Positions 9,369 to 63,399 of a stretch of 64,000 nt of DNA are shown here, piece after piece (the stretch's first letter is position 1; the number at the start of each line of letters is the position of its first letter). Below the pieces are notes generated by a model. That model was not told the origin of the DNA, did no database searches, and was given only the letters and a program-made list of their open reading frames with translations. The position numbers and the translations under genes are program-made. The DNA is from Candidatus Altimarinota bacterium. GTDB taxonomy: Bacteria; Patescibacteriota; Gracilibacteria; BD1-5; UBA2023. The stretch is taken from the NCBI GenBank assembly GCA_028713325.1, contig JAQTON010000001.1, forward strand, positions 323,454 to 387,453, given 5' to 3'.

Positions 9369-12300
9369 ATGACCCATCAAAATTTCGAATCCGTGTATTC
9401 TCGTCTCAATACCAAACAAAAACAAGCGGTCGATACCATTTATGGTCCCGTGATGGTTATCGCGGGACCCGGAAGCGGGAAAACCGAACTTCTTTCTGCT
9501 CGGGTCGCAAACATCCTCCGAGAAACGGATGTGAATCCCGGAAATATCCTCTGTCTGACTTTCACGGACAATGCTGCAAAGAATATGAGGGAACGCCTAT
9601 CTCGCATCATCGGTGCGGATGCATACAAGGTGGCGATTCATACATTTCATAGCTTTGGTAATGACGTACTGAATCGATACCGTCACCGAGTTTCGGACTA
9701 TGCGGAAGCTTCTCCGATCGACGATATAGAAGTATCCCGTCTGTTCGACGAAATTTTGATCGCTCTTCCATGGAACGACCCCTATAAACCCGGACAAAGT
9801 GCCAACGAGAAAATCCGTGAACTTCGGGAAGCCATTAAGAATTTGAAGGACGCTGGAATTACACCTGAAGAGTTCGGTGAGATTATTGCCGTCAACAAGA
9901 AAACGATGAATATTGTGAATCCGCTTATCCGAGCTTATCTCGACGAGCTTTTTTCGCTCGGTCAGAAAAAAGAAGATAAAACACGAAAATTGGAACTGTT
10001 TCAATCTTTTACGGATGCGGCAAATGAGGTGCTTTCTCTGCTTCCGAAATATCACGGAGTGCATATGAGTTTCGCAAATATGTTTCTACAAAGCCTGTCT
10101 GAAGCTTGGGAATCGCAAGAAAATGAATCCGACGCGAAAATTATCACCAAATGGCGAGATGAATGGCTAGAAAAGGATCACCAAGGAAAATATATCCTCA
10201 AAGACAGTGTTCGTCTTGATAAACACGAGTCCCTTGCACGAATTTATTCGCTTTATCGAGACAGGATGAAGGAGCGGGGATACATCGACTTTTCCGATAT
10301 GATTCTCTCGGCTATCGGACTCATCGAAGAATATTCGGATGTTCGGGCAAATCTTGCCGAACAATATCAGTTTGTTTTGATCGATGAATATCAGGACACG
10401 AACGATGCACAGATGCGGCTTATTACCGATATCCTCGAAGTGAGCGAGAGTCCGAATGTATTCGCGGTCGGAGACGACGATCAGTCCATATACAAATTTC
10501 AGGGAGCCAATACGAAAAATATCCGCCTATTTAGAGATCGCTGGCCGGATACCGAGCTTATCATCCTCGATACGAACTACCGTTCCAATAGTGAGATTAT
10601 CGAGGTTTCTCGCCGACTTATGGACGCTTCCATACACTCCATAGGCGACATCTTTTCCGGTGCGACGAAGTCTTTCCATTCCCATCGAGGGACGGGAGGA
10701 AAAGTGATACGGCAGGTTTTTGAAAATGAAGCGGAGGAGCTCGTTTGGATAGCGGATGATATTGCGAAAACCGTTGAATCTGGCATTCTTCCTCATGAGA
10801 TTGCGGTTATTTCGAAGAAAAATAAAACTCTTGAAAATCTCGCGAAAGTTCTGCTTTCAAAAAACATTCCCGTGGTACTGAGTCGAGACGAAAATATATT
10901 CGACTCCGAGGAAGTTCGGCTCGTGGATGAGATTCTCGAATACCTCGTATCTCTCAGAAACGACGGAAATCCGCGAGATGAGATTCTTCTCTCCATTCTT
11001 GCTCATCCGTGTTTCGGCGTGCATCGTCTCACCATCTGGGAGATTTCCAAATCCATTCATCATGCCAGACGAGAAGAGAGAAAATCTTGGATTGACACGC
11101 TTCGTACTCATGCCGATACGAATCTCCGAAATCTTGCCAATTTCCTCATAGAACTCTCTATTCTTTCTCACCATACGAGGCTGGAAGATTTGATCGATTT
11201 TATTACCGGAGCGAACGCTCTCGGTATCCCCGACGAGTACGATGAAGATCCGACCAAAAATCTGATCCAGATCGATATGTTTGGAGGAGGAAAGAAGGAG
11301 TATATATCTCCGATATATGCCTATTATTTTAACAGAGATAGAGTTGAAAAAAATAATATTTCAGGAACTATGCAAAAGCGAAGTAATTCGAGTGAAAATC
11401 GAGAACCGGAATGAGTCGTACGAAGTCAGTACGGCGAATGAGGAAGCAGAGATTTGAACTCGAAAGACGAGTTTTTCCATAGTTCCATCTATGCCAGACA
11501 TCTTGCGAATTTGCGAAAATTGGTCGAAGCGGTACGAACGTTTAAAAATGGCGTATGATTCCTTTCTATCCTCGATTACGGTGAATTTATCCGTCTCGTG
11601 AAAAAGTATGACATCAAGATTTCCGCTTCTCACCTCATCGGAAATGACCGAACGAGCGTGAACCTCATAACCGTGCACAAGGCAAAGGGGTTGGAGTACG
11701 GACGAGTATATGCCATGGGATTGACGGAGAAGCAATACAAACTCGGGAAATTCGGAGGATCTCCTTTGCCGAAAAACCTTCCGCTCGCTGCGGAAAAAGA
11801 CGACGACGAAGATATCCTCCGTCTCGTTTACACGGTATTTACGCGTGCAAAAAACGAACTCATCCTCTCGTATGCTCGGAAAAACCTCGCAGAAAAGTCC
11901 GATAACCCACTCGGGTGTCTCACGAATATCGAAGAACCTTTTTCTCCGATGGAGAACATATCCATCGATTCGCTCACATTTTTTCTCGAACGCGAACGAA
12001 AGGAACTTTTCAGTCTCCCGTATCAGTGAGACGAGCGAAATTTCCTCCTCGATCGCATCGAGAAACAATTCGTCATGAATACGACGGCGTTGCAAAATTT
12101 TCTCAATGTGGCGGATACGGGTCCGGAAGTGTTCATCAGCAACAATATCCTCCGATTTCCGCAGGCAAAAAGCGTGGCAGCGAGCTACGGATCGGCTATG
12201 CATTCGGCTCTCGAACAATTCTTCAATGAATACAAGAGTTCCGGACTCTTTCATAAACAACGACTCTTTGATGCGTTCAAAACTTCTTTTAAAAAAGAAG

Positions 12301-12878
12301 GGTTTGACGAGGATATCGAGCGGGACTATCTGAATCGCGGACAGGAAAACCTCGAAGCTCTCTATGGAGAAATTACCGGAAAAAAGTATGGAGAACTGCA
12401 TCTGGAATATGATTTCCGAACTGCCGGAGGCTGGGTATTTCTCGATGATATTCAGATTACCGGGAAAATCGATCGAATCGAAATACTGGAAGGAAACAAA
12501 CTCATTGTCACCGACTACAAAACCGGCGGAGGATTCGAATCTTTCTCGGATACCGGTTCGGCATACGAGAAAGTGAAGAAATGGAAATACAAACTCCAAC
12601 TCTGTTTTTATGCCGTTCTCTTCGAGCTTTCTCCGAGATGGTCCGGATTCCGAAATAACGAATATTCTCTCGTATTTGTCGAACAAGACCGAAAGACCGG
12701 ACAGTTTATGACTGTCACGGAGTACATCCAACAAGGGGAAATAGAACGCACGAAATCGCTCATCCGTGCGGTTTCACTGAAGATTCATTCTCTCGATTTT
12801 CCCGATATTTCCGCATATGATAAGAATATCGCCGGGATTCGTCAGTTTGAGGAAGATTTGTTGGAGGGGAATGTGTAG
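9369..12878 (+). CDS. UvrD/PcrA-type helicase fused to a PD-(D/E)XK nuclease
   Basis: 1169 residues once several UGA glycines are read through; the standard code gives three fragments. Superfamily 1A helicase: Walker A AGPGSGKTE (32-40), Walker B with IDEYQDTN (about 337-344), VGDDDQSIYKFQGA, TNYRSNSEI, TVHKAKGLEYG and VYTVFTRAKNELIL. The C-terminal 260 residues hold a RecB/AddB-like nuclease: GSAMHSALEQFF (the H ligand), GKIDRIE and IVTDYKTGGG. It should unwind and resect DNA ends in repair, standing in for AddAB/RecBCD. Residues 666-706 are encoded by a dispersed palindromic repeat lying in frame between the helicase motifs. Monocistronic with promoter and terminator. Confidence 0.93.
11364..11486 (+). 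repeat. Long-hairpin repeat, copy A, in frame inside the helicase gene
   Basis: Ends GGAACTATG / CATAGTTCC are inverted; inner CGTACGAAGTCAGTACGG hairpin. Length 123 bases, exactly 41 codons, starting on a codon boundary. Two of the helicase's in-frame TGAs lie in it. Same family as 36082, 40281, 43895, 57208 and 63276. Confidence 0.85.
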
Positions 12879-24281: not shown

Positions 24282-26258
24282 ATGAAAAAACCCTTCCTTT
24301 TCTTTTCCTTTTTTCTTGCAGGCATTCAGGCTGTTTCTGCCGGATCTTTCGTCTATCCGTTCGATCAAATTGCGAAACCCGCTTGTAAGTATTCCGCCTG
24401 GAGTATGCTCGGTGATGATTGTAAAATGTCACTTCCGCGGATTTCCGGTGCCGATTATACAAAATACAAGGACAATAAAGAATATCGTCGTATTTATTCC
24501 GTACTTTATTGAGCAACCTATAACTACGGATGGGATGTGGGATATGGAAGTCATCTATGAATGGATATTTCTACGGCACAAGGAACCCCCGTTCACTCTA
24601 TCGGCGATGGAACGGTGGTTTCCGCCGGGTGGCAAATGGGATGGGGAAATACGGTTTCCATCAGACATACGCTTTCGGACGGAAAAGCGCTCTATTCCAA
24701 TTATTCCCATCTCTCGAAAATAAACGTGACAAAAGATGCTTCACTGAGAGCAGGCGATACGATTGGAGAAGTCGGAAATACGGGAAATTCCTATGGAAAT
24801 CATCTGCATTTTCAGATTGATGCGACCACTCAGGCACATCCCTATTATTACGTCACTTGTGGGAAATGAAAGAATCCTCTGACAATCGTCGATCAAGGAC
24901 TCTGTCGAGATTATTTGACCGCAAATACTATCGATCCCATAGCCTTTCTTGAGAATGGAACCATCACAACGACCGCAGCTGTTCAAAATCTTCAAGAACA
25001 AGGAAAGAAGGCACCAAAAATCGAACAAAAGACTATCAAAACTCGCGAACAGATTCTTGACGAAGAAATAGAGGAATTCTTCAAAGACCATACTCTCTCG
25101 GTGAGTCTCTGAGTTCCATGAAACAATATCGAAGCAGGAAAAACGCATACTGCACGAATCAATGTAACGTATCGTAATCGTCCATTTACCGGAAGTCTTC
25201 CAGCAGAATGACTCATTCTTTCCTACGACCGTGCCGGAATCAAGCTTTTTCCAGATATAGTTATCGCCATCGAAAACGGGGTACGGGAATTTCAGATTAC
25301 CGGGGTGAAGCCGGGGAAATACGGGATAAGTTTCAAAATCGGAAAACGAATATTTCTTACAACAAGTATAAATATCTATAAAAAAAGCGAAATGATAGCT
25401 CCGGAACAGGCGGTTATTATCCACAACAAGTCCATCGTTCTTGCGGATGAAAAGCTTACCGGAGTAGTGTTTCGAACCAAGTACGCCTCAAATCAAATCG
25501 ATATTCCCTATAATGGACGCTACATCCTTAAATCTCTCACGGGAAAAGCGAAATTTTGCAATGTTTCTAAGCGAAACGTTCGCAAATGTAGCACGAGTGA
25601 ATTGGTGGAAGAATTGGAATTCGGGTATGAGGATACTTATCGTGGAGTTCTTTTGGCCAATATTCTCCCATTCGATTATATGCCCATCAGTTTGGTGGTC
25701 GTCAAAAAAAATACGGGAAAAATTCCCGCAAAAACTATCGCAAAAAGTAAGGCCGATATTCTTATAACCAATCCGAACGGTATTGATAAAACATATACCT
25801 ATTTTCCCGACGTGATCAGTGCGTTGAAGAAAGGACTTATGAAACCGAATTCCGGGTATATCCTCCAAGATCGCGAACTTATCGGAAAACAAGCGAAGGA
25901 GCTCGTACGAAACGCCCTTGCTCACCTCTTCCTCAGATCGGGAGATAATCAGATAAAAAAACAACAAATCCTCTTACGGATGAAGGATTTTGAAACACGG
26001 GCAATGAAATTCGATGATTATAAAAAAATATCCCGTGCAGAATTCGCAGGATTGGTCGTAGGAATTCTCGACGGTCCCCCTCTCGTGATTGAGGAAAAAA
26101 AATGGATCGATGAGGCAGGAGAATACAAAAATATGATCACCACCCTTCGTCTCCGATATGATTTTGCATGGAAAGATCAGTTCGCCACTCGATATTTTCA
26201 GTCAGACAAGAGTATTACGGTGGGGGAGAGTATGTATATGATAGAAAAAGTGTTATAA
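24282..26258 (+). CDS. Secreted M23 (LytM-type) peptidase with long C-terminal extension
   Basis: 658 residues. Signal peptide MKKPFLFFSFFLAGIQAVSA. The M23 zinc site is HLGMD (H91, D95, with UGA glycine 93) and HLHFQI (H174, H176), with the typical GTPVHSIGDGTVVSAG between. It should cut peptide bridges in murein, its own or that of a host. After a linker (about 215-270) come a beta-rich domain (VSLGVPGNNIEAG...) and a charged helical C-terminus that looks partly like an SLH module (FPDVISALKKGLMKPNSGYILQ; ISRAEFAGLVVGIL). That would tie it to the wall. Co-transcribed with the 63-residue gene upstream. Confidence 0.92.
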
Positions 26259-26380
26259 GGATTTCTGAAAAACTGCGAATTTCTTCGTTAGAGAAATTTT
26301 ATTCTCAGTCACTTCCACACTAGGAAGCTCCTTTCGAAAAAATTTTTCTGCCTTGAACTTCTTGTTTTTGAGAAATCCTC
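26259..26380. repeat. Long-hairpin repeat, divergent copy H
   Basis: Ends GGATTTCTGAAAAAC / GTTTTTGAGAAATCC are inverted; inner CTTCC...GGAAG stem. Begins directly after the TAA of the M23 gene. Length and architecture equal the other copies; the core sequence differs. Confidence 0.6.
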
Positions 26381-27790: not shown

Positions 27791-30700
27791 ATGAAAGCAT
27801 CTCTTTTTTCCCGAAAACTCCTTGCCGGAAGTCTTTCGTTTTTTCTTTTGAGTTCGAACCTTTCCTTTCTTGGAGTGAATATTGATTCTATAGATACGAC
27901 GTATGCAATATATACGGCATATGATCCGAATCAGGTATATTCATCGGGAAGTACTTTTAATTACAGTGGCATCGACATCGATGTTACGGGAACGGGAGTG
28001 GGAAATACGAGTAGTACGTATTTTCCATGATGCGATACGAAAGATATCGCTGTATGGAGCGGATCTTCCGTACAAATCTGGTCGGCATGTAATGCCGGAG
28101 CTTCGACGTCATATAGCGGAAGCGGACAATCTGTGGTTATTGCCGATACGACGGATGCAACTGGAGGTCCGTCGGTAGGACAGCGATCTTATATGGGGGA
28201 TTATTATCAATGGCACAGAAATGAGGCCATTGCCACCGGCACACCTTCCACCCCAACTCTTGCAAATGTGGATTCCGGTGCAATCATAGCTGGACACTCG
28301 ATTTTTGTAGTCGGAAGTATCAATTACTCCTATAATTGGACAGCTTTCACCGGATCGAATACAGACCCATTATGGACAAATTCTCCTTGCGGATCGGGGT
28401 ATGTTATGCCTCTCTCATCCGATTGGATAAATGCAAAAAATATTCTTGGAACCGACTTGGGTTATTTTGGGAGTACATTGAAACTTCCCCTTGCCGGAGC
28501 AAGAACCAGCGACGGACAGTATGTTTCCGGACATGGAAAATATTGGTCCGCAAATCCAAACGGAGTGAATGCAAGCGGTCTTTGGCTTGATTCTAGCGGA
28601 TCGGGAAGTATTAATGCTACGGATAGTCGGCAGCGAGCCATCGGGTCATCGGTTCGATGTATGATGAATCTTACCTGATCGGGAGGTGGTGGTGCCGGAA
28701 GCGGATCCGGAACTACTAACTATATCCCGGGAACTTCTTTCCAATCGCCCATTCAAACGATATTTTCCAATTCCGGACAAGTAGCGACTACCGGTTCAAT
28801 CGTTTTTTCCATCACCAACGACCGAATGCAGACCATGTCGGGGATAACTATGCTTTCTATCGGACTGAGCGATGCGTTCGTTTTGGATGCTCCGACTCTG
28901 ACGGCTTTTTCCGGAGTACTTGCAACCAACACCTGTAGCGGTGCTGTGACGATCAAAAAAGACAGTACTGCTGGTGGAGCGACTGCCAATTCCTCTATGA
29001 ATATAATCGAGTGTAAACTTACTACTCCATTGTCGACTTTCGATACGGGTGCGATTATGGAGATATCGCTCAATGGCGTTACCAATCCAGGTATTCCCGG
29101 TCGATATTCGCTTGGGACGAAACTGAAAACTTCCGCTTGGGACGAGTTTTTCTACGGAGAAACTCTCATCAAAGATAATTACGATCTCGCTCCTCCGGTT
29201 CTGACGGGAGTGTTTCCCATCGGTGAGTACCAATTGTTATTGGAGTTCAACGAACCGATACACACCGATTATATGAACAATTCCATAACGGGAAGTTTTT
29301 CACCCGCTCTCTCGCTCTACAGTTCCTATACCGACTATAATAACCCGAAAAAATTGTTTTTAAGCACTTCCGCTCAGACCGGAGCAACGGCATATTCTTT
29401 CAATGTTACGGGAATCAAGGATTTCAACGGGAATATCGCCACCGCAACCGGGAATTATACGTCCTATGATCCTACTGCCAAAGATCTGGATTATATTTCT
29501 CCGTATATGTTTTCTCAAGGGAAGAGCTATACCGGAGTATCTCTCTACGGAAAAAACAATATATTCTCGGGAGTGACATCCGGACAGATAAGCATCGGAA
29601 CGCTTTCTGGAATCACCTTTTCCAATATTGTCGTCGATGAGGCAAACAAGATACATTTTCAATCGGACATATCAACCGGTGCAGTACTCGGAAGCAGGGA
29701 TATTTCCGTAACCGTTGCGGGAACGAACTACAAACTCTTCAATGCTTTCTGGATCGATAAAAACTGGGATAATTATGCATTTTGGCAAAATATTTCTCCG
29801 ATCAATTACAATGATTCGGCAAAAACCGGACAACTGAAAATAGAATTTAGCGATACCATTTCGAATGTCTGAGATCTGAGCGTGGACAAAAACTACGGAA
29901 CCACTGTTCTTATTCCAAGTATTACCGCTCAGGCAATGAGTGGAAATATCCTCTCTTTGACGCTTACGGGAGTGGAATCGGGAGTGGGGTACGATCTCTC
30001 CTTCTCGGGCATAACTTTTGCCGGAGGAAAGATATTGAATGAGTACAACAATAAGGCATTTTTCTCGTTTTTCGATGGAAACTACGCAAATCAGATACTT
30101 CCGCCGATTGTAAATTACTCTTTCCCCGGAGATTTTTCGTGGGATATTCCCGTGCAGGATATGACCGCTACCGGATTTATCATGAAGGTGGGGTTTGATC
30201 AGGAACTTGATCTCGTCACAATCACTTCCGCAAATATTAAATTGAAAGATGACATGGGAAATGAAGTAACAACCACGCTTTCCTATACGGGAACGGAACT
30301 CACTGTTTCTACCGATCTTCCATTATCGTACGGTACGAAATATTCCTTGAATCTTTCCTCCAGTGTAAAAAGCGATAAATGATTGAATCTTGTCGGGAAT
30401 ATTCCGATGAACGAATGAGGAGGGCATAAAATCACTTTCAATACCATCGCAAATTATACTGCCACTTCCGGATGAGGTGGAAGTTCCGGTGGACCATATC
30501 CAATTTCAGGATGAACGGATTTCTCTATTCAAAAAACCGATCCGTTCTTCGGAGCACAGGATGTTCCGTATGATGCGAAAATGCGGGTTATTTTCAATGA
30601 GACCATCGATAAAACCACGGTAAATACCGGAACGGTACGACTCTATAATATCAATGGAGCCACTCCGGTTCAACGTTCAATAAGTCTCACGTATGACAAT

Positions 30701-33700
30701 GATTATTCTCCAAAAACCCTCTATGTAAACGGAGGATCATTGAATCCAAACGAGAAATACCGACTCGTTATCGCGGGATCATGATCGGGAGTAAAATCGG
30801 TAAAAAATCAAACCCTCAGTACTTTTTGAAGTGGGTATATTGTCGAGTTTAAAACCGGAAACAATACTGCCGCGAGTATCCCTCTGAATATTATGTGGGA
30901 TTACTCCTCTCCCGACAATACCTCATTTGAGGTGGGCTTTTCTTCTCCCATTGATGCATCGACCGTGAATGCCTCATCGGTATCGCTCTACCAGAGCGGA
31001 GGAACCAAGGTAACTTCTTCCGTGAGCTATAATCACTACGCAAATTCCATAAAATTGGAACCATCCATCGAACTTCTTGCCAACACTCAGTACAAAGTTG
31101 TTCTTAAATCGAATATCATAAAAGATATCGGAGGAAATAGTATCGCGACGGGAAGTCTTGCAAATAACTTCACATATAACAGTGCCAACAACACCATAGA
31201 AAAATCTTATTCCACCGCTGGAGCTGTGGTTATGCCTTTCTTTGTAGATTCGTTTTGGGCGACCCCGACAAATATGGAGATAAAATTCTCCAAGCCGATA
31301 TCGGATGCCCTCAATAAATCCAATTATAGCATCACTTACTGTAATGCTGTGGGAGCTTCCATCTGTACCCCCGACACTTCACTTCCTCTCACGGATGCGA
31401 TTATCAAGTATAACGATATAGAGAGAAAAGTATCTATCGAGTGACTCTCCATCCCTCCTTCTGTCAATGGAACGCAAACCGTCGTAGCGATCAATCTTAC
31501 CAATGTAAAAGACAAATTTTTGAATTCCCTCAGTACTCTAACTCAGCAAACCGTTCTTTTTAATGAAAATGTCGGTACATCATTTCAGGCGACAACTCAG
31601 GCTATAGAACTCAAAGCGAATGTAAATCCGCAGAATAATACTGCCGGAAAGAAGAATCTCTATTTCATAGATTTTCCGGTCTCTTCTCAGCTTACCACTG
31701 GATCAAAAATCGAGGTATCTTTCCCGAGTCAGTTTGACCTGACAAGTGCGAAGTTTGACAGCGGTAGTTACGTCAATTATGTGAACGGCGATAAAACCAA
31801 ACCAAAGTTCACCATCGTGAAATTGGCGGATAAGAATATCCTGGAATACACGATCACTTCTGATTATGCCGATATTCTCAGAGAGAATGATTATATTGCT
31901 TCCGATGTGCAGGATATCGTAAATCCTCTGCAGGCAAAAGACTATACGACCGATGGATATGCCGTGGAAATCACTACAAAAAATATCTCCTCGGTAGTTT
32001 TATCCAAAATTAAATCAAATCCTCTATTTATCAAAGAATCTCCAACAGGAAATACCCTCAAAGCTATTACGATTCAGTTTAAAAATAGTAGCGGAGCAAC
32101 ACTCACAGGAGCAACTATTTCAGGAGCAGTTGTTTGACTCAATACACCTTCTGGGTATGAAGAACTCATCGCTAATACAAATGGAACGCTTATTTTTACT
32201 GGAGAAGTGAATCAAAATTACTCGATCTTTCTCACTCCCGAGATTCGGATAAAAGATCTAAATACCAACACGTACACAGGATCGAATTACATATCTACGA
32301 ATAACCAGTTTATCAATATATTCTTGGATGAGAACAAGACGATAGATATCGTCTTGAAAGATAAAACGGATACTAATGAATTTGTTACCCTCTCCGGATC
32401 CATCACCGGACTTTCCGGAAAAGAGCTCACTATCTGGGTGTCGAGTCCGAATGGGTTTTTCAATAAAGATCTCTGAATCATAGGATCTCCCGCTTCTTTT
32501 GAATTGCAAGTACCGAAAAATGCAGGATATACCACTATCGGTATAAGTCCTACTATGGCACAGGGTGCTATGGCAACAAATTACAAAGCACCCGATTTTA
32601 TGCCACCAAAACCTTTGAACGTAAGTGTGGGAACGGCTAATATTTCAAATCTGAACTTCGTCGTAGAATCCGCAACTATTGATTTCACTGTCGTGGTAAA
32701 AGATAATTCCGGTTCTGGAAAAGCAATACCGAAAGCCAATGTCTATGCGTACTCCCCATCGGGAGACAGTATGGGGCTCTATGGACAAACCGATGCTGCC
32801 TGACAGGTGAAGTTCAAGACAAAAGCCGGGGTTTATACCTATGGTGCGTATATAGAAGGATTGCCAACTCCCGCAGAACAAACTATTACCATCGGTGGAG
32901 CCGGTACCTATACGGGGAATCTCGTTGTTATTATGCCGAACAGGACGATAGAAGGAAAACTTCTGAATGGAAATAATCCGATATCCGGAGTAAATATCTC
33001 TGCCTACAATGAGACAAAGTGAGTATATCTCAATACTATGACCGATACTTCCGGAAATTATAAGTTCTACGTAGAGGATGGAACATGGAAGCTTTCGGGT
33101 TGGGTACAAGCATATGGTTCACTTGCAGAAAAAACCCTTACCGTGAGCGGAGACAATCTTGTCAATCAGAACTTTGTTATAACACAGGAATGAATGTACA
33201 CTATAACAGGATCGGTGAATCTCGGATCCGCTTCCGGAACGGGTATATCCGGAGTGAATATCTTTGCCGAAAGCACGGATAATGATTATGCCAAAAATTT
33301 CTTTGCCTTCACCGACGATAGCGGAAAATTCAATCTTTCTCTGAAGAATGGAACATATAAGCTCCATGCGTATCATCCTCAATATGGAGAAGTCGGAGTG
33401 AAAAACAAAACCGTCAATAGTGCTGACAGTTCTGTTGGAGCTTTTGTGATAGAAGCACCGAAATCGGTAACCATTACCATGACCGGTGCAGGATTGCCGA
33501 GTGATTTATCGAAATTCGAGTGGATCGTCGACGTATTTGATAATACGAACAAGAAGTGATTCAATAAAAAGATAAAAACCCTTACCGGATATACTTTTGA
33601 TAATGTCGGATCTGGAACCTATGACGTGAAGATAAATGTTATGGGAATCGGGCAAGTGTTTAATTCCGGAAGTTTCGTAGTGGATGCAAACAGAACGATA

Positions 33701-36079
33701 GATATAGATATTCAAGGGACAGAGCAACCCGTAAGCCTTGGTGGAACGGTATATATTACCGGAACGACCACCCCTTTGCAGGATGCGTATGTCGAGATAC
33801 GAAATACCCTCACAAAACAATCTTTCTGAGTGAAAACAAACGCTCTCTGAGTATTTGATATTAAACTCAAGAAAGGAATAAATTATGAACTCATGGCAAA
33901 AAAACCGGGATATGAGAAATCAACAATCTTCACCGGAACGATCGCAAATACCGGAACCACTCTTGGAAATATGTATCTGAAAGCTCTTACGACCACTATT
34001 AACGTATCTGGAACGGTTTCCGGATTATCCGGAAGTCTGGATTCCAAAAAGGCATATTTGAGTCTTCAATGAGTAAATGGAGAAGGATCGGATACTTCCA
34101 AATGGTTCGGACAAGAAGTAACGATATCCGGATCTACCTTTACTCTCTCATGAGTTCCTGCAAATTTTGGAAGTGGAAAACTTATATTTGCCACACAAGG
34201 GTATGAAATGAAGGCGGATAGCATCAGAAATTATGCAAGTTCCAATATTGCCGGAATCACATTGAGTCTTACTTCTTTACAGGTTTCTGCTCCAAAATCA
34301 CTTCCTATCACTCCATCTCAGGGTTGAGTACTTTCCGATAATGATGCGGGTATGAAACTCACCATGCCAAGCAATGCTCTTGGAACATCGACGGATCCAG
34401 GTACGGTCGTTGCAAAAGAAACCTCCGTTATACCGAATACTCCGGGAGGAGAACCGGTCGGATGAAAGGCGAAAGAGATTTCTGCAACCGATTCCAACGG
34501 ACAGCCTATTACGAGTTTCAATAGTGACGTAACACTCGAGTTGACCTACTCCGGAAGCGAGTTTACCGCAACCGCTTCCTGAATAACGCTCGATGAAGTG
34601 AAGAATATGCAGGTATCCTACTACGATAGCACCACGGAGAGTTGGATAAGTCTTCCCACGATTCTTTCATCCAGTTCCGGAAGTATATTCGATACCTATT
34701 CCGGCTCTACGCTTTTGTCGAGTCTGAATCCGGAAAGTCTCGTATTTACCCTCAAAACAAAAACGGATCACTTTACCCTCTTTACGGCACTTATAAGTAC
34801 CGTGGTTGCCAATGCTTCCGTGGCTTCAACCACTACCTCATCCACTCCTCCTTCTTCCGGATGAGGTGGTGGTATATCATCCGTTTCTCTCACAACCGGA
34901 ATCGCTGCAACGTTCAATGGTATATCCAAGTATCTCGGAGATACGACGCAGAGTATCGTCCTCAAATCCGGAACCAATATCAACAGTGTTCTCTCGATTA
35001 AACGAGACGGAAAAGTTATCGCTCTTACTGACCTTCTTAAATCTGGAGTAAGTACCGTTTCGAGTGTGAGTAAAAATCTCGTAAGTTTCGCTGTCGGTGA
35101 CGTTATTTCCACATCCAAAAACGGAAGTCTCGAAATCGCTCTCGACGGATATTCCAAGATGCAAATCGCTCCGGGATCGAGTATGAAGATAGCAGAAGTG
35201 GGGAACGGATTCCTCTCCTACGAGAACCTCGGAGGAAGTGTCCAATATCAGTTCGATAAACGAGACGGCGGAAAGTTCGAATACAAAGTAAAAGGAAAAA
35301 CTGGATACGCGACGATTCGCGGAACGACTCTCTCGGTTACTTCCGATGCGAGCAAGGATGTATATAAACTCATCGAAGGAAAGATCGATATCTACAATGC
35401 TTTCCTCAAAAAAACCATTAGTCTTGTTTCCGGAGACAGTTATATCGCGTATGCGAACGGAACGGAAGATACGAGTAAAATAGTATCGTCTAAAACCTCC
35501 TCGGGCATTGTTCTCCCTTCAAATCCTCCCACGCCGGTTGTTTCAACAGTAACTCCCTGCGGTCCGTACGGAGATGTCGATACAAAGAGTGAATGGTGTT
35601 CGTATATTACGAAATTGAACGGAAAAGGGATAATCCGTACCAATGCCACCTACGAACCGAATCGCAATATTTCCCGTGCGGAACTCCTCAAGATGGCGAA
35701 TCTTTCCCGATGAACTACTCCCATATTCAACAAGCTCTATACCTATGCCGACATTAAGACGACCGATTGGTGGGCACCGTACGTGTCGACTGCCAAGAGA
35801 CTTGGATATATCTCTGCAACCAATGTAAATTTTGACCCAAATCGACCGATTACTCGAGCGGAAGCTATGAAGATCATCATGAATTTCTCCTGAGAGAAAA
35901 TGAGTTTCGATTCGAAGTATACTTATGGTGATATCAGATCCACTGATTGGTGGGCACCGTATGTATCCACTGCCAAAAAGCTCGGACATATTTCCGCAAC
36001 CGGAACAAAATTCCGACCGAACGATTCCATCTCTCGAGCGGAGGTGGCGAAGATTCTCTCCAATATATTCTTCAAGTAA
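27791..36079 (+). CDS. Giant S-layer-type surface protein with SLH and FecR-like domains
   Basis: 2762 residues, open only because about 26 TGA codons are glycine. Signal peptide 1-40. Residues about 70-300 resemble the Fibrobacter major paralogous domain (CGSGYVMP, GKYWSAN). Next are several bacterial Ig-like modules of the Big_5 type (LSYGTKYSLNL about 846, LNPNEKYRLVI about 985, LLANTQYKVVL about 1095). From about 1730 to 2080 there are carboxypeptidase-regulatory-like repeats (ISGVNIxA...DTSGNYKF). A FecR-like beta domain (about 2430-2560, GYATIRGTTLSVTSD) follows. Three SLH motifs (about 2590-2762; two with TTDWWAPYVSTAK/STDWWAPYVSTAK) anchor it to the wall. Likely the main surface or adhesion layer. 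Confidence 0.95.
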
Positions 36080-39322: not shown

Positions 39323-39357
39323 AAATAACCCCGAGTACTCGGGGTTATTTTTATAGA
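39322..39357. terminator. Bidirectional terminator
   Basis: AATAACCCCGAG / CTCGGGGTTATT stem with A-run and T-run on the two sides, between the cyclase gene and rimO, which converge here. Confidence 0.92.
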
Positions 39358-40880
39358 GCGTATTTTACGAATTCTCCAATCTCTAATTCTTTTTTGTCCC
39401 CCTCGATCATAGATAATTTCACCTCATCGTACTCGTCCACTTCCGGTGCTTGTATCTCTCGGCGGATTATTGTTTTTTTCTCGTCAAAATCCATAATGTA
39501 TCCGGAGAATGTTTTCCCTCGGGCGTTTTTTGCATGTTTCGCATAAATCTCATCAAGAACCTTGGAGAGTTTCTTCATCCGTTGATTCACGACCGCTTCA
39601 CTCACTTTTTGGTCGAGTTTGGAGCTCGCAGCGAGTGCTTCGTCGTGATATTGGAACACTCCGACCGATTCGAAATCGTGGCGTTTCACGAATGCGAGAA
39701 GGTGCTGGAAATCCGCGTCGGTCTCACCCGGGAATCCGATGATGAAACTCGTCCGTATGAACGCATCGGGAAAATTCTCTCGGAGGGATTTCAGGAATGC
39801 TTCCACATGTGCCTCGTCGTAGTGGCGTCCCATGCGTTTGAGGATGTGTTCGCTCGAATGCTGAAAGGGGATATCGAAGTAGGGGAGGAGTTTCTTGAGA
39901 TTTTTCAGTCGCTGTATATGGTCGAGCGTCAGGATGTCCGGGTACATATAATAGAGCCGAATTTTAAAGTCTCCCGGAATCGCCTCGATTTGTTCGAGGA
40001 GTTCGAAGAGTTTCGGTTCACCATAGAGATCGGTTCCGTATCGGGTCGTATCCTGAGCGATAATCTGAATCTCTCGGATGCCGTTTGCGAGCATGGTGTG
40101 CACTTCTTTCACGACATCTTCCATCTTTCGACTCGTCTGTTTCCCGCGAATCTGCGGGATGATGCAGAATGTACAACTATTGTCGCATCCTTCTGCTATT
40201 TTTAAGTATTCATACCCAAAAGGTGCATGAATATACGCACGGACTTCGTCACCTCTCCAAATAAACGCACTCTTCGGTAAATGAGAAATAACTTCAATCT
40301 TCGCGTTCAAATCTTGCATTTCCTCGTTCGCCGTACTGTCTTCGTACGCCTCACTACGGTCCGCGATTTTCGCACGAATATTATCGTTCTTTCCCATTTC
40401 CTGTGTCCCACTCTTTTTTATACTTTTTTCTCCAATCGAATTGAGATATTCAGTCAACTTCTTCTCCTTCGACTGTTTCATCGCCACTTTCGCTCGCACG
40501 ATGGCACTCATATCGATTCCGACGGTCTTCCCGAAGAGAAGCCCTTCAATCGTCGTATAGCTGATGAACGGAACCACCGAATGGAGATTCTTTAGACTCG
40601 AGAGAAACGAATCGTCTTTCACGGATACATAACACCCCATGAGGATCAATTTCTTCCCGAGATTGTCATAGTGACTGAGAGTCTGTTCGGACTCCGCACG
40701 AGCCGATGACAGGAATCCGCAGGTATTGACTATCACATAATCCGCTTCCGGGTCTTCCGGGTCTTCTATATACTCGATGGGCGTGCGGTCTGAGTACTTC
40801 AAAATCTCCCCGATAGCGAATTCGAGGTCGACGAGGTTTTTGGAACAACCGAGGTTGATGGAGGAGAAGCGAAAGGACAT
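39351..40880 (-). CDS. rimO: Ribosomal protein S12 methylthiotransferase RimO with repeat-encoded insert
   Basis: 509 residues; typical RimO is about 440. UPF0004 domain with C12, C54 and C83 for one 4Fe-4S cluster; radical SAM motif EGCDNSCTFC (C232, C236, C239) for the second; PYFDIPFQHSS and a C-terminal TRAM domain. It adds a methylthio group to an aspartate of S12. The extra residues (about 161-200) sit between the two cluster domains and are encoded by a copy of the dispersed hairpin repeat. MiaB is less likely because of the RimO-like GCDNSCTFCIIP and IPFQHSS context. Last gene of gatB-cupin-rimO. Confidence 0.92.
   Translation of the reverse strand: MSFRFSSINLGCSKNLVDLEFAIGEILKYSDRTPIEYIEDPEDPEADYVIVNTCGFLSSARAESEQTLSHYDNLGKKLILMGCYVSVKDDSFLSSLKNLHSVVPFISYTTIEGLLFGKTVGIDMSAIVRAKVAMKQSKEKKLTEYLNSIGEKSIKKSGTQEMGKNDNIRAKIADRSEAYEDSTANEEMQDLNAKIEVISHLPKSAFIWRGDEVRAYIHAPFGYEYLKIAEGCDNSCTFCIIPQIRGKQTSRKMEDVVKEVHTMLANGIREIQIIAQDTTRYGTDLYGEPKLFELLEQIEAIPGDFKIRLYYMYPDILTLDHIQRLKNLKKLLPYFDIPFQHSSEHILKRMGRHYDEAHVEAFLKSLRENFPDAFIRTSFIIGFPGETDADFQHLLAFVKRHDFESVGVFQYHDEALAASSKLDQKVSEAVVNQRMKKLSKVLDEIYAKHAKNARGKTFSGYIMDFDEKKTIIRREIQAPEVDEYDEVKLSMIEGDKKELEIGEFVKYAL
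40281..40400 (-). repeat. Long-hairpin repeat, copy C, in frame inside rimO
   Basis: AAATGAGAAA / TTTCCCATTT ends, inner CGTACTGTCTTCGTACG hairpin. 120 bases, 40 codons; adds residues 161-200 without a stop in the rimO frame. Confidence 0.82.
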
Positions 40881-43894: not shown

Positions 43895-43896
<2 letters not shown>

Positions 43897-44016
43897 AAAT
43901 ATGAAACAACTTCGATATTCATATTCAAAGACTCCGTTCCTCGTTCTCCGTACAAGTCGTATGGTTCACTTCAGTACTCGCTTTTCATACGAATCTCATC
44001 GTTCTTTCATATTTCT
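43895..44016. repeat. Long-hairpin repeat, copy D
   Basis: Ends AGAAATATGAAA / TTTCATATTTCT; core CGTTCTCCGTACAAGTCGTATGG. Overlaps the last bases of the tpiA stop codon. Confidence 0.85.
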
Positions 44017-56763: not shown

Positions 56764-57210
56764 ATGAAAATACTTCTCCTCGATAATATTCGTTCTATCC
56801 TTAATGTCGGAGCTCTTTTTCGTACCTGTGACGGTGCGGGTTTTGAGAAGATTGTCTTGACGGGCTTTACTCCGACTCCCCCAAGGAAAGAGATTAGCAA
56901 AACCGCTATTTGAGCCGAGAATTTCGTGGCATGGGAGTATTATAAAAACCCTCTGGAGTATATTCGGAACTTGCGGGAACAGGGGTATCGGATTTTCGTT
57001 CTCGAACAAACTCCCGAGAGTGTCGATTTTCATAAAATAGCTTTTATGGAGTATGAGAATATCTGCCTCGTTCTCGGAAACGAGATAGAAGGGGTTCAAA
57101 AAGAACTCATAGATCTTGCACATCACTGCATAGAGATTCCTATGCTCGGGCAGAAACAATCGCTCAATGTTGCGACGGCAGGGGGTATTTGTATGTACCA
57201 GTTCCTTTAG
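56764..57210 (+). CDS. SpoU/TrmH-family RNA 2'-O-methyltransferase
   Basis: 148 residues: only the SPOUT catalytic domain. Motif 1 NVGALFRTCDGAG, motif 2 LVLGNEIEGV and motif 3 KQSLNVATAGGI form the knotted SAM site. One UGA glycine (AIGAENF). The substrate, tRNA ribose (TrmH/TrmL) or rRNA, cannot be told. The TAG stop begins repeat copy F. Confidence 0.92.
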
Positions 57211-57332
57211 GAATTTCTGCAAAATGCGAACTTCGCATTCAAATCTTCCGTTCCTCGTTCTCCGTACAGTCGTACGGTTCACTTTGGTACTCGATTTTCA
57301 TACAAATTTCATCATTTTTCAGGAGATTCCTA
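57208..57332. repeat. Long-hairpin repeat, copy F
   Basis: Ends TAGGAATTTCTG / CAGGAGATTCCTA; core CGTTCTCCGTACAGTCGTACGG. Its first three bases are the TAG stop of the methylase gene. Confidence 0.88.
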
Positions 57333-63275: not shown

Positions 63276-63399
63276 AGAAGTTTATAGAAAATGATGAAAT
63301 TTACATGAAAAACGAGTACCGGAGCGAGCTGTACTAAATAGTACAGTGAGTGATGGAGCGGAGTTTTGAATGAAAAGTTCGCATTTTATAAAACCTTCT
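63276..63399 (+). repeat. Long-hairpin repeat, copy G
   Basis: Ends AGAAGTTTATAGAAAATG / CATTTTATAAAACCTTCT; core CTGTACTAAATAGTACAG. The start codon and first ten codons of the glycosyltransferase gene lie inside it. Confidence 0.88.

Follow-up and report, generated by a model that had tools for sequence, protein, structure and literature searches.

How did a copy of a dispersed palindromic repeat come to occupy 41 codons of a helicase gene without interrupting it? The question is raised by a window of 64,000 nucleotides (the whole stretch of DNA analyzed) from a Gracilibacterium genome of 1.05 Mb (95% complete; referred to as G000, its congeners being G001–G006), in which the gene of a UvrD-like helicase-nuclease contains a 123-base palindromic element (Table 1). 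Our results make it very probable that a hairpin repeat of approx. 120 nucleotides, found throughout the genus, entered a permissive loop of the helicase without shifting the reading frame and is translated as 41 tolerated residues. Sequence comparison establishes the dispersal and covariation of the repeat, its insertion relative to homologues, its in-frame and stop-free state, the UGA dependence of the frame used and the two habitats of the family. By analogy with the palindromic elements of Rickettsia, we infer that transcription and translation carry the insert into the helicase protein, where it adds 41 hydrophilic and probably disordered residues that would leave the fold intact.

The helicase insert and its repeat family

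The closest named relatives of the host are MAGs of Candidatus Gracilibacteria. On the evidence of its genes, UGA is a glycine codon in this organism (genetic code 25). Glycine is the most frequent aligned residue at 153 of 245 UGA codons in aligned helicases, a tRNA with a UCA anticodon is encoded at G000:C1:506736-506811 (labeled as a selenocysteine tRNA by ARAGORN, because this program used the standard code), and the orthologous helicase open reading frames (ORFs) of related genomes are likewise spanned by UGA. The helicase ORF is open across its 1169 codons with translation table 25 only, since four UGAs (residues 682, 691, 730 and 887) block table 11; the first two lie within the palindromic element. 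The first-pass annotation of this DNA had described an insert of exactly 123 bases (41 codons), starting on a codon boundary between helicase motifs IV and V, with no UAA or UAG in the gene frame and with two UGAs that are tolerated only because UGA is glycine. This description proved accurate in each respect: the first codon base of residue 666 lies at position 11364 and the insert ends with residue 706, motifs IV (LDTNYRS) and V (VNLITVHKAKGLE) begin at residues 400 and 764, respectively, the ORF is open under table 25, and the frame used is closed under table 11.

The element folds into one long hairpin with nine-base complementary ends (minimum free energy −45.8 kcal/mol; z approx. −6.7 against mononucleotide shuffles). 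A blastn search of the genome with this sequence gave 37 matches (E<1e-3), certain of which are fragments of a single copy. Forty copies were gathered, of which 32 were aligned for a consensus. The consensus hairpin has 34 pairs, 24 of which show two-sided compensatory changes, and 95% of the cells pair; none of 500 shuffles reached any of five covariation measures. The helicase copy, itself a member of the training set, matched the resulting covariance model with E=2.4e-28, which, together with the compensatory pairs, excludes chance. The outermost helix (helix 1) is the most variable and yet it pairs, with changes on both sides in 8 of its 8 pairs; the ends of the element are therefore conserved by pairing and not by sequence. 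Since compensatory changes run along the whole stem, these data suggest that recognition, or selection for retention, acts on the single strand in its folded form, as DNA or RNA. A known RNA family was rejected, as ten loci of the element had no Rfam match.

According to the covariance model, there are at least 60 copies in G000, at least 61 in G001, 31 in G004, 30 in G003, 24 in G005, 11 in G002 and 10 in G006. The distribution in the rest of the host family is patchy (at least 61 copies in G013 and 24 in G022), and the rest of the order is nearly devoid of the repeat. The window holds six strong copies and an additional weak one. Some copies of the family contain a smaller nested palindrome of approx. 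24 nucleotides (AGCTATTTAGCTCCCCTCGTGGGT and variants), which in many cases occupies the same internal site.

Helicase homologues are present in 57 of 59 related genomes. The residues of the insert are missing in G003 and G006, as well as in other genera wherever the homologue is full-length, and among the species sequenced this copy is private to that of G000. The proposal of the first-pass annotation that the repeat gave rise to the 41 residues by insertion thus withstood the alignment of related helicases, in which no repeat-free relative with the same residues was found. Compared with G003 and G006, whose sites are empty, the helicase has gained a net 42 residues and not 41 (72 versus 30, counted from GGKK to YARH), so one codon of change falls outside the palindrome. 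In G001, G002, G004 and G005 the same loop is occupied by inserts of different sequence, each of which is strongly folded and keeps the frame. At least one of these four (G004:C1:314747-314848) is a member of a second palindrome family, dispersed and GC-rich, which has 57 matches in G005, 30 in G004, 25 in G002, 10 in G000, one in G003 and none in G001 and G006. The helicase loop is a tolerance hot spot, which sister species have filled with inserts of their own, a different palindrome family among them. Members of the GC-rich family (peptide PHPNPLLKGEG..) were observed in sister species within the frames of the helicase, PcrA and KsgA, in the same loops as the main family.

In G000, copies of the main family are also located in frame in UvrA, SufS, PcrA, KsgA, RlmE, RimO, a probable glycosyltransferase (no NCBIfam match; named from sequence reading alone) and other genes, and in relatives they occur in MurG, PheT, MurB, RadA, RlmE and RimO. 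Empty sites were found for SufS (G001, G002, G003, G004 and G006), PcrA (G001, G003, G004 and G006) and KsgA (G004). Those homologues that are filled carry other palindromes at the same place, KsgA of G001 and G006 having another subtype of the main family. On solved structures, the insertion point maps to residues 187/192 of SufS (5j8q) and 347/351 of PcrA (1pjr), with only 3–4 residues between the aligned parts. Each of the 11 inserts found by homology in relatives keeps the frame and lacks stop codons ((1/3)^11, approx. 6e-6), and this set is free of the bias of a gene caller that requires open frames. In the PcrA copy (L015), the preceding residues (..DFKGEGIR) resemble the peptide of the GC-rich family, as if the copy had been inserted into an older palindrome.

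These patterns would be explained if copies insert into genes and those that are out of frame, contain UAA or UAG, or encode an insoluble peptide are lost by selection. The surviving in-gene copies would be those that keep the frame, lack UAA and UAG, and encode a soluble peptide.

Table 1. Features of the window and of related genomes discussed in the text
Feature	Position	Strand	Basis or remark
UvrD-like helicase with C-terminal PD-(D/E)XK nuclease, 1169 aa, code 25	9369..12878	+	translation; Pfam PF00580, PF13361, PF12705
Palindromic repeat, strong copy, in-frame insert in helicase, residues 666-706 GTMQKRSNSSENREPEGVVRSQYGEGGSRDLNSKDEFFHSS	11364..11486	+	translation, fold, repeat matches
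5' terminal arm GGAACTATG	11364..11372	+	sequence varies among copies, co-varies with 3' arm
3' terminal arm CATAGTTCC	11478..11486	+	pairs with 5' arm GGAACTATG
UGA codon 682 within element, read as Gly	11412..11414	+	translation
UGA codon 691 within element, read as Gly	11439..11441	+	translation
Weak degenerate copy, begins at stop codon of ORF 24282-26258 (+)	26258..26379	-	39 bits
Copy antisense to gene 27791-36079 (+), adjoining its stop codon	36081..36200	-	
RimO (30S ribosomal protein S12 methylthiotransferase) with in-frame copy	39351..40880	-	NCBIfam TIGR01125, 366 bits, above cut-off
Copy within RimO, sense, older, in another frame without UGA	40278..40400	-	97% identical at same site in G004
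Copy overlapping stop codon of triosephosphate isomerase-like gene ending at 43896 (+)	43895..44016	-	
Copy overlapping stop codon of ORF ending at 57210 (+)	57210..57330	-	
Further copy, fitting neither habitat clearly	63277..63398	+	95 bits
Sole antisense in-gene copy found, in RadA gene	G001:C73:10191-10312 (L164)		
Copies with nested palindromes of approx. 24 nt	L024 (C5:178546), L026, L027 (KsgA), L029/L030, L066, L197, L198		
Second GC-rich family, examples	G005:C83:1517-1618, G004:C1:314747-314848, L084, L085, L104		

Copies adjoining stop codons

The genomic context of the family was determined for 91 copies placed in four genomes (G000, G001, G004 and G006). In 52 of them the hairpin base adjoins an opposite-strand gene, at −3 to +4 nucleotides from its stop codon; distances of −8 to +15 were allowed, yet all the stop-adjacent copies fell within the narrower range. 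This habitat, the sense bias of in-gene copies described below and the presence of other repeats in the same loops of sister species are all observations that go beyond the first-pass annotation. In the case of the copy at 43895, the upstream gene appears to be that of triosephosphate isomerase (by sequence reading), and the same C-terminus and stop codon are conserved in the congener G001, which lacks the element there; the stop codon is therefore native. Copies of the main family, with nested inserts, occupy the same place behind the tpiA-like stop codon in G003 and G006. In G001 (L196), the 3' flank of this stop codon carries a different repeat (GCGATACCCTC..AGCAATCCAG), at a position where three congeners carry the main family.

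It is possible, although on balance somewhat improbable, that the repeat is primarily a functional nucleic-acid element (a 3'-end hairpin, terminator, mRNA stabilizer or REP/BIME-like sequence) whose home is behind stop codons and whose in-gene copies are by-products, an explanation compatible with their translation. The narrow spacing from opposite-strand stop codons, one of them native, argues for such an element, as does the conservation of RimO and some stop-adjacent copies (93–98% identity across species). Among 14 orthologous element pairs, identity is 93–98% in five and 88% in one. The RimO insert, compared between G000 and G004, has only one change in approx. 23.5 synonymous sites versus 55% in its flank. 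However, the remaining eight pairs (62–81%) resemble random copies (mean 71%); with only 6 of 14 pairs at or above 88%, uniform nucleotide-level conservation of the element is not borne out. Nor was a conserved U-tract seen, the in-gene copies are oriented opposite to the stop-adjacent ones, and the helicase copy is not shared between species. The high-identity pairs may result from locus-specific constraint, conversion or re-insertion. Because synonymous sites are also constrained, the ratio of nonsynonymous to synonymous rates (dN/dS) inside the inserts is uninformative.

Repetitive extragenic palindromes (REPs) of E. coli located within 15 nucleotides of a stop codon have been reported to stall ribosomes (PMC12306157). 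By comparison with these sequences, it is plausible that the stop-adjacent repeat has a role at gene ends, and the habitat itself suggests that the repeat has, or exploits, such a role. The large gene 27791-36079, whose stop codon is adjoined by one of the copies, ends in two 84-nucleotide direct repeats (35738-36001; 76% identical; WWAPYVSTA..) resembling S-layer homology sequences.

Orientation of in-gene copies and the role of UGA

Nineteen of the placed copies lie inside genes, 18 in sense and one in antisense orientation. At least 14 of these 19 share the same frame (frame 1, QKRSN..PEG..), which encodes a hydrophilic peptide. Every in-gene copy of this type contains one to five UGAs, so that the frame is closed under the standard code and is open only because UGA is glycine in the host. 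Within the sense orientation, frame 1 shows a modest residual preference (P approx. 0.009).

Survivorship with respect to stop codons was rejected as the sole cause of the sense bias, as it predicts under half of the copies in sense orientation (P approx. 2e-6 for 18 of 19). Stop codons leave the bias unexplained because antisense frames are open no less often than sense frames, several of them without recoding. The orientation is probably explained by the hydropathy of the encoded peptide: mean values of the grand average of hydropathicity (GRAVY) are about −0.9 to −1.0 for sense frames and about −0.1 to +0.3 for antisense frames, and the sense orientation would be tolerated because all sense frames are hydrophilic.

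The first-pass annotation had further proposed that the recoding of UGA widens the range of sites in which the repeat can sit, a claim that was only partly borne out. The 72 copies outside genes have 432 frames, of which 221 (51%) are open when UGA is read as glycine versus 72 (17%) when it is not, a threefold increase, and the frame actually used depends on this reading. On the other hand, frame −1 of the reverse strand of the helicase element is open even under the standard code, and the second family fills the same loops with inserts (helicase of G004, PcrA of G005) that contain no UGA. Recoding is thus required for the frame used, but not for the entry of palindromes into these loops.

A stronger version of this claim, that the reassignment of UGA drove the invasion by creating a coding niche to which the sense frame adapted, draws on the same threefold increase and on the UGAs of the main frame. 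We consider it unlikely, given the antisense frames that are open without recoding and the UGA-free second family. UGA is a stop codon in Rickettsia. The palindromic elements of that genus nevertheless enter genes in the same manner (PMC2229807). A similarly doubtful proposition is that one family has two precise and opposite habitats, the first antisense, with the hairpin base at the stop codons of genes, and the second sense, within essential genes and in a frame that owes its existence to the reassignment of UGA to glycine; the repeat would then be a functional 3'-end hairpin to which the codon reassignment had opened an additional, protein-coding niche.

It is very improbable that mRNA splicing or ribosomal bypassing keeps the hairpin out of the protein. 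Mobile hairpins in protein genes of Magnusiomyces mitochondria (byps) are skipped by ribosomes, and the present element, likewise a long, stable and mobile hairpin in essential genes, with a shape held by compensatory changes, might be treated similarly. The inserts described here, however, keep the frame and lack stop codons in all cases found (11 of 11 among the homologues), neither of which is needed by a skipped element. The sense orientation, the predominance of one frame and the nested 24-nucleotide insert of KsgA, which preserves the frame, also argue against removal or bypass. Finally, an origin of the genomic repeats from 41 ancestral residues of the helicase, for which nothing was found, is ruled out for practical purposes by the empty sites of G003, G006 and other genera and by the similar peptide in unrelated proteins.

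Several points weigh against insertion and translation of a tolerated mobile element, the reading that we favor. The in-gene set of the four genomes was derived with a caller that requires an open frame, and broken copies could have been missed. In the AlphaFold model of the helicase, the pLDDT confidence score is below 50 over residues 655-706, between two helices, but with only 17 sequences behind the model this low score says little about disorder. Five of the orthologous pairs are 93–98% identical against 80–84% in their flanks, which is unexpected for a purely neutral passenger. There is no recognizable target-site duplication, the available empty sites being too diverged, and no mobilizing enzyme was found among the three transposase families searched in the 95%-complete genome (Y1_Tnp, DDE_3 and DDE_Tnp_1). 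Mobility is therefore deduced from dispersal and empty sites. Identity with the REP/RAYT (REP-associated tyrosine transposase) system was rejected, as no Y1 transposase was found, and mobilizers of the IS630 (DDE_3) and IS4/IS5 (DDE_Tnp_1) types were rejected, as none was found.

Comparison with known palindromic elements

Rickettsia provides the best-documented cases of palindromes within the reading frames of essential genes, and others have been reported from Wolbachia and for a small number of miniature inverted-repeat transposable elements (MITEs); a literature search gave no report of such repeats in Gracilibacteria. A reduced, recoded lineage in which unrelated inserts have filled the same loops in parallel offers natural replicates for the origin of protein segments from non-coding repeats, and links a change of the genetic code to the tolerance of mobile DNA in countable form.

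The REP and BIME (bacterial interspersed mosaic element) sequences of E. coli are palindromes of 20–40 nucleotides, part of which lie close behind stop codons (PMC12306157). The present family shares the palindromic structure and the position of part of its copies; it differs in its length of approx. 120 nucleotides, in the lack of a Y1/RAYT transposase and in having 19 of 91 placed copies within genes. Bacterial MITEs with open frames (ERIC, the 107-bp Correia/NEMIS and YPAL) are stem-loops of 100–200 bp that are sometimes fused in frame to genes (PMC2229807), and thus resemble the present family in size, structure and in-frame fusion. In contrast to MITEs, the arms of the present elements vary in sequence and pair in each copy through compensation, no target-site duplication was seen, and no partner transposase of the three families searched was found in the host.

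The closest known kind is represented by the Rickettsia palindromic elements (RPEs), dispersed stem-loops of approx. 105–150 bp with terminal inverted repeats and no clear target-site duplication (PMC2229807, PMC10969869; Ogata et al. 2000 as reviewed), which are present in frame in conserved housekeeping genes and also between genes (PMC2229807, PMC10969869). An RPE-bearing Gmk of Rickettsia is translated and active (PMC2229807). The family described here is likewise a palindrome of many copies in the 100–150 bp range, forming a long stem-loop, in frame and stop-free in conserved genes whose homologues in relatives have empty sites. It differs from RPEs in (i) its host, a Gracilibacterium and not an alphaproteobacterium, (ii) the need of the used frame for UGA as glycine, (iii) the antisense position of most copies at stop codons, and (iv) the several kinds of insert that fill the same loops in sister species. 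The two have no known sequence relation (no Rfam match) and are likened through published descriptions of RPEs; without claiming membership, we propose that the repeat family works in the same way as these elements.
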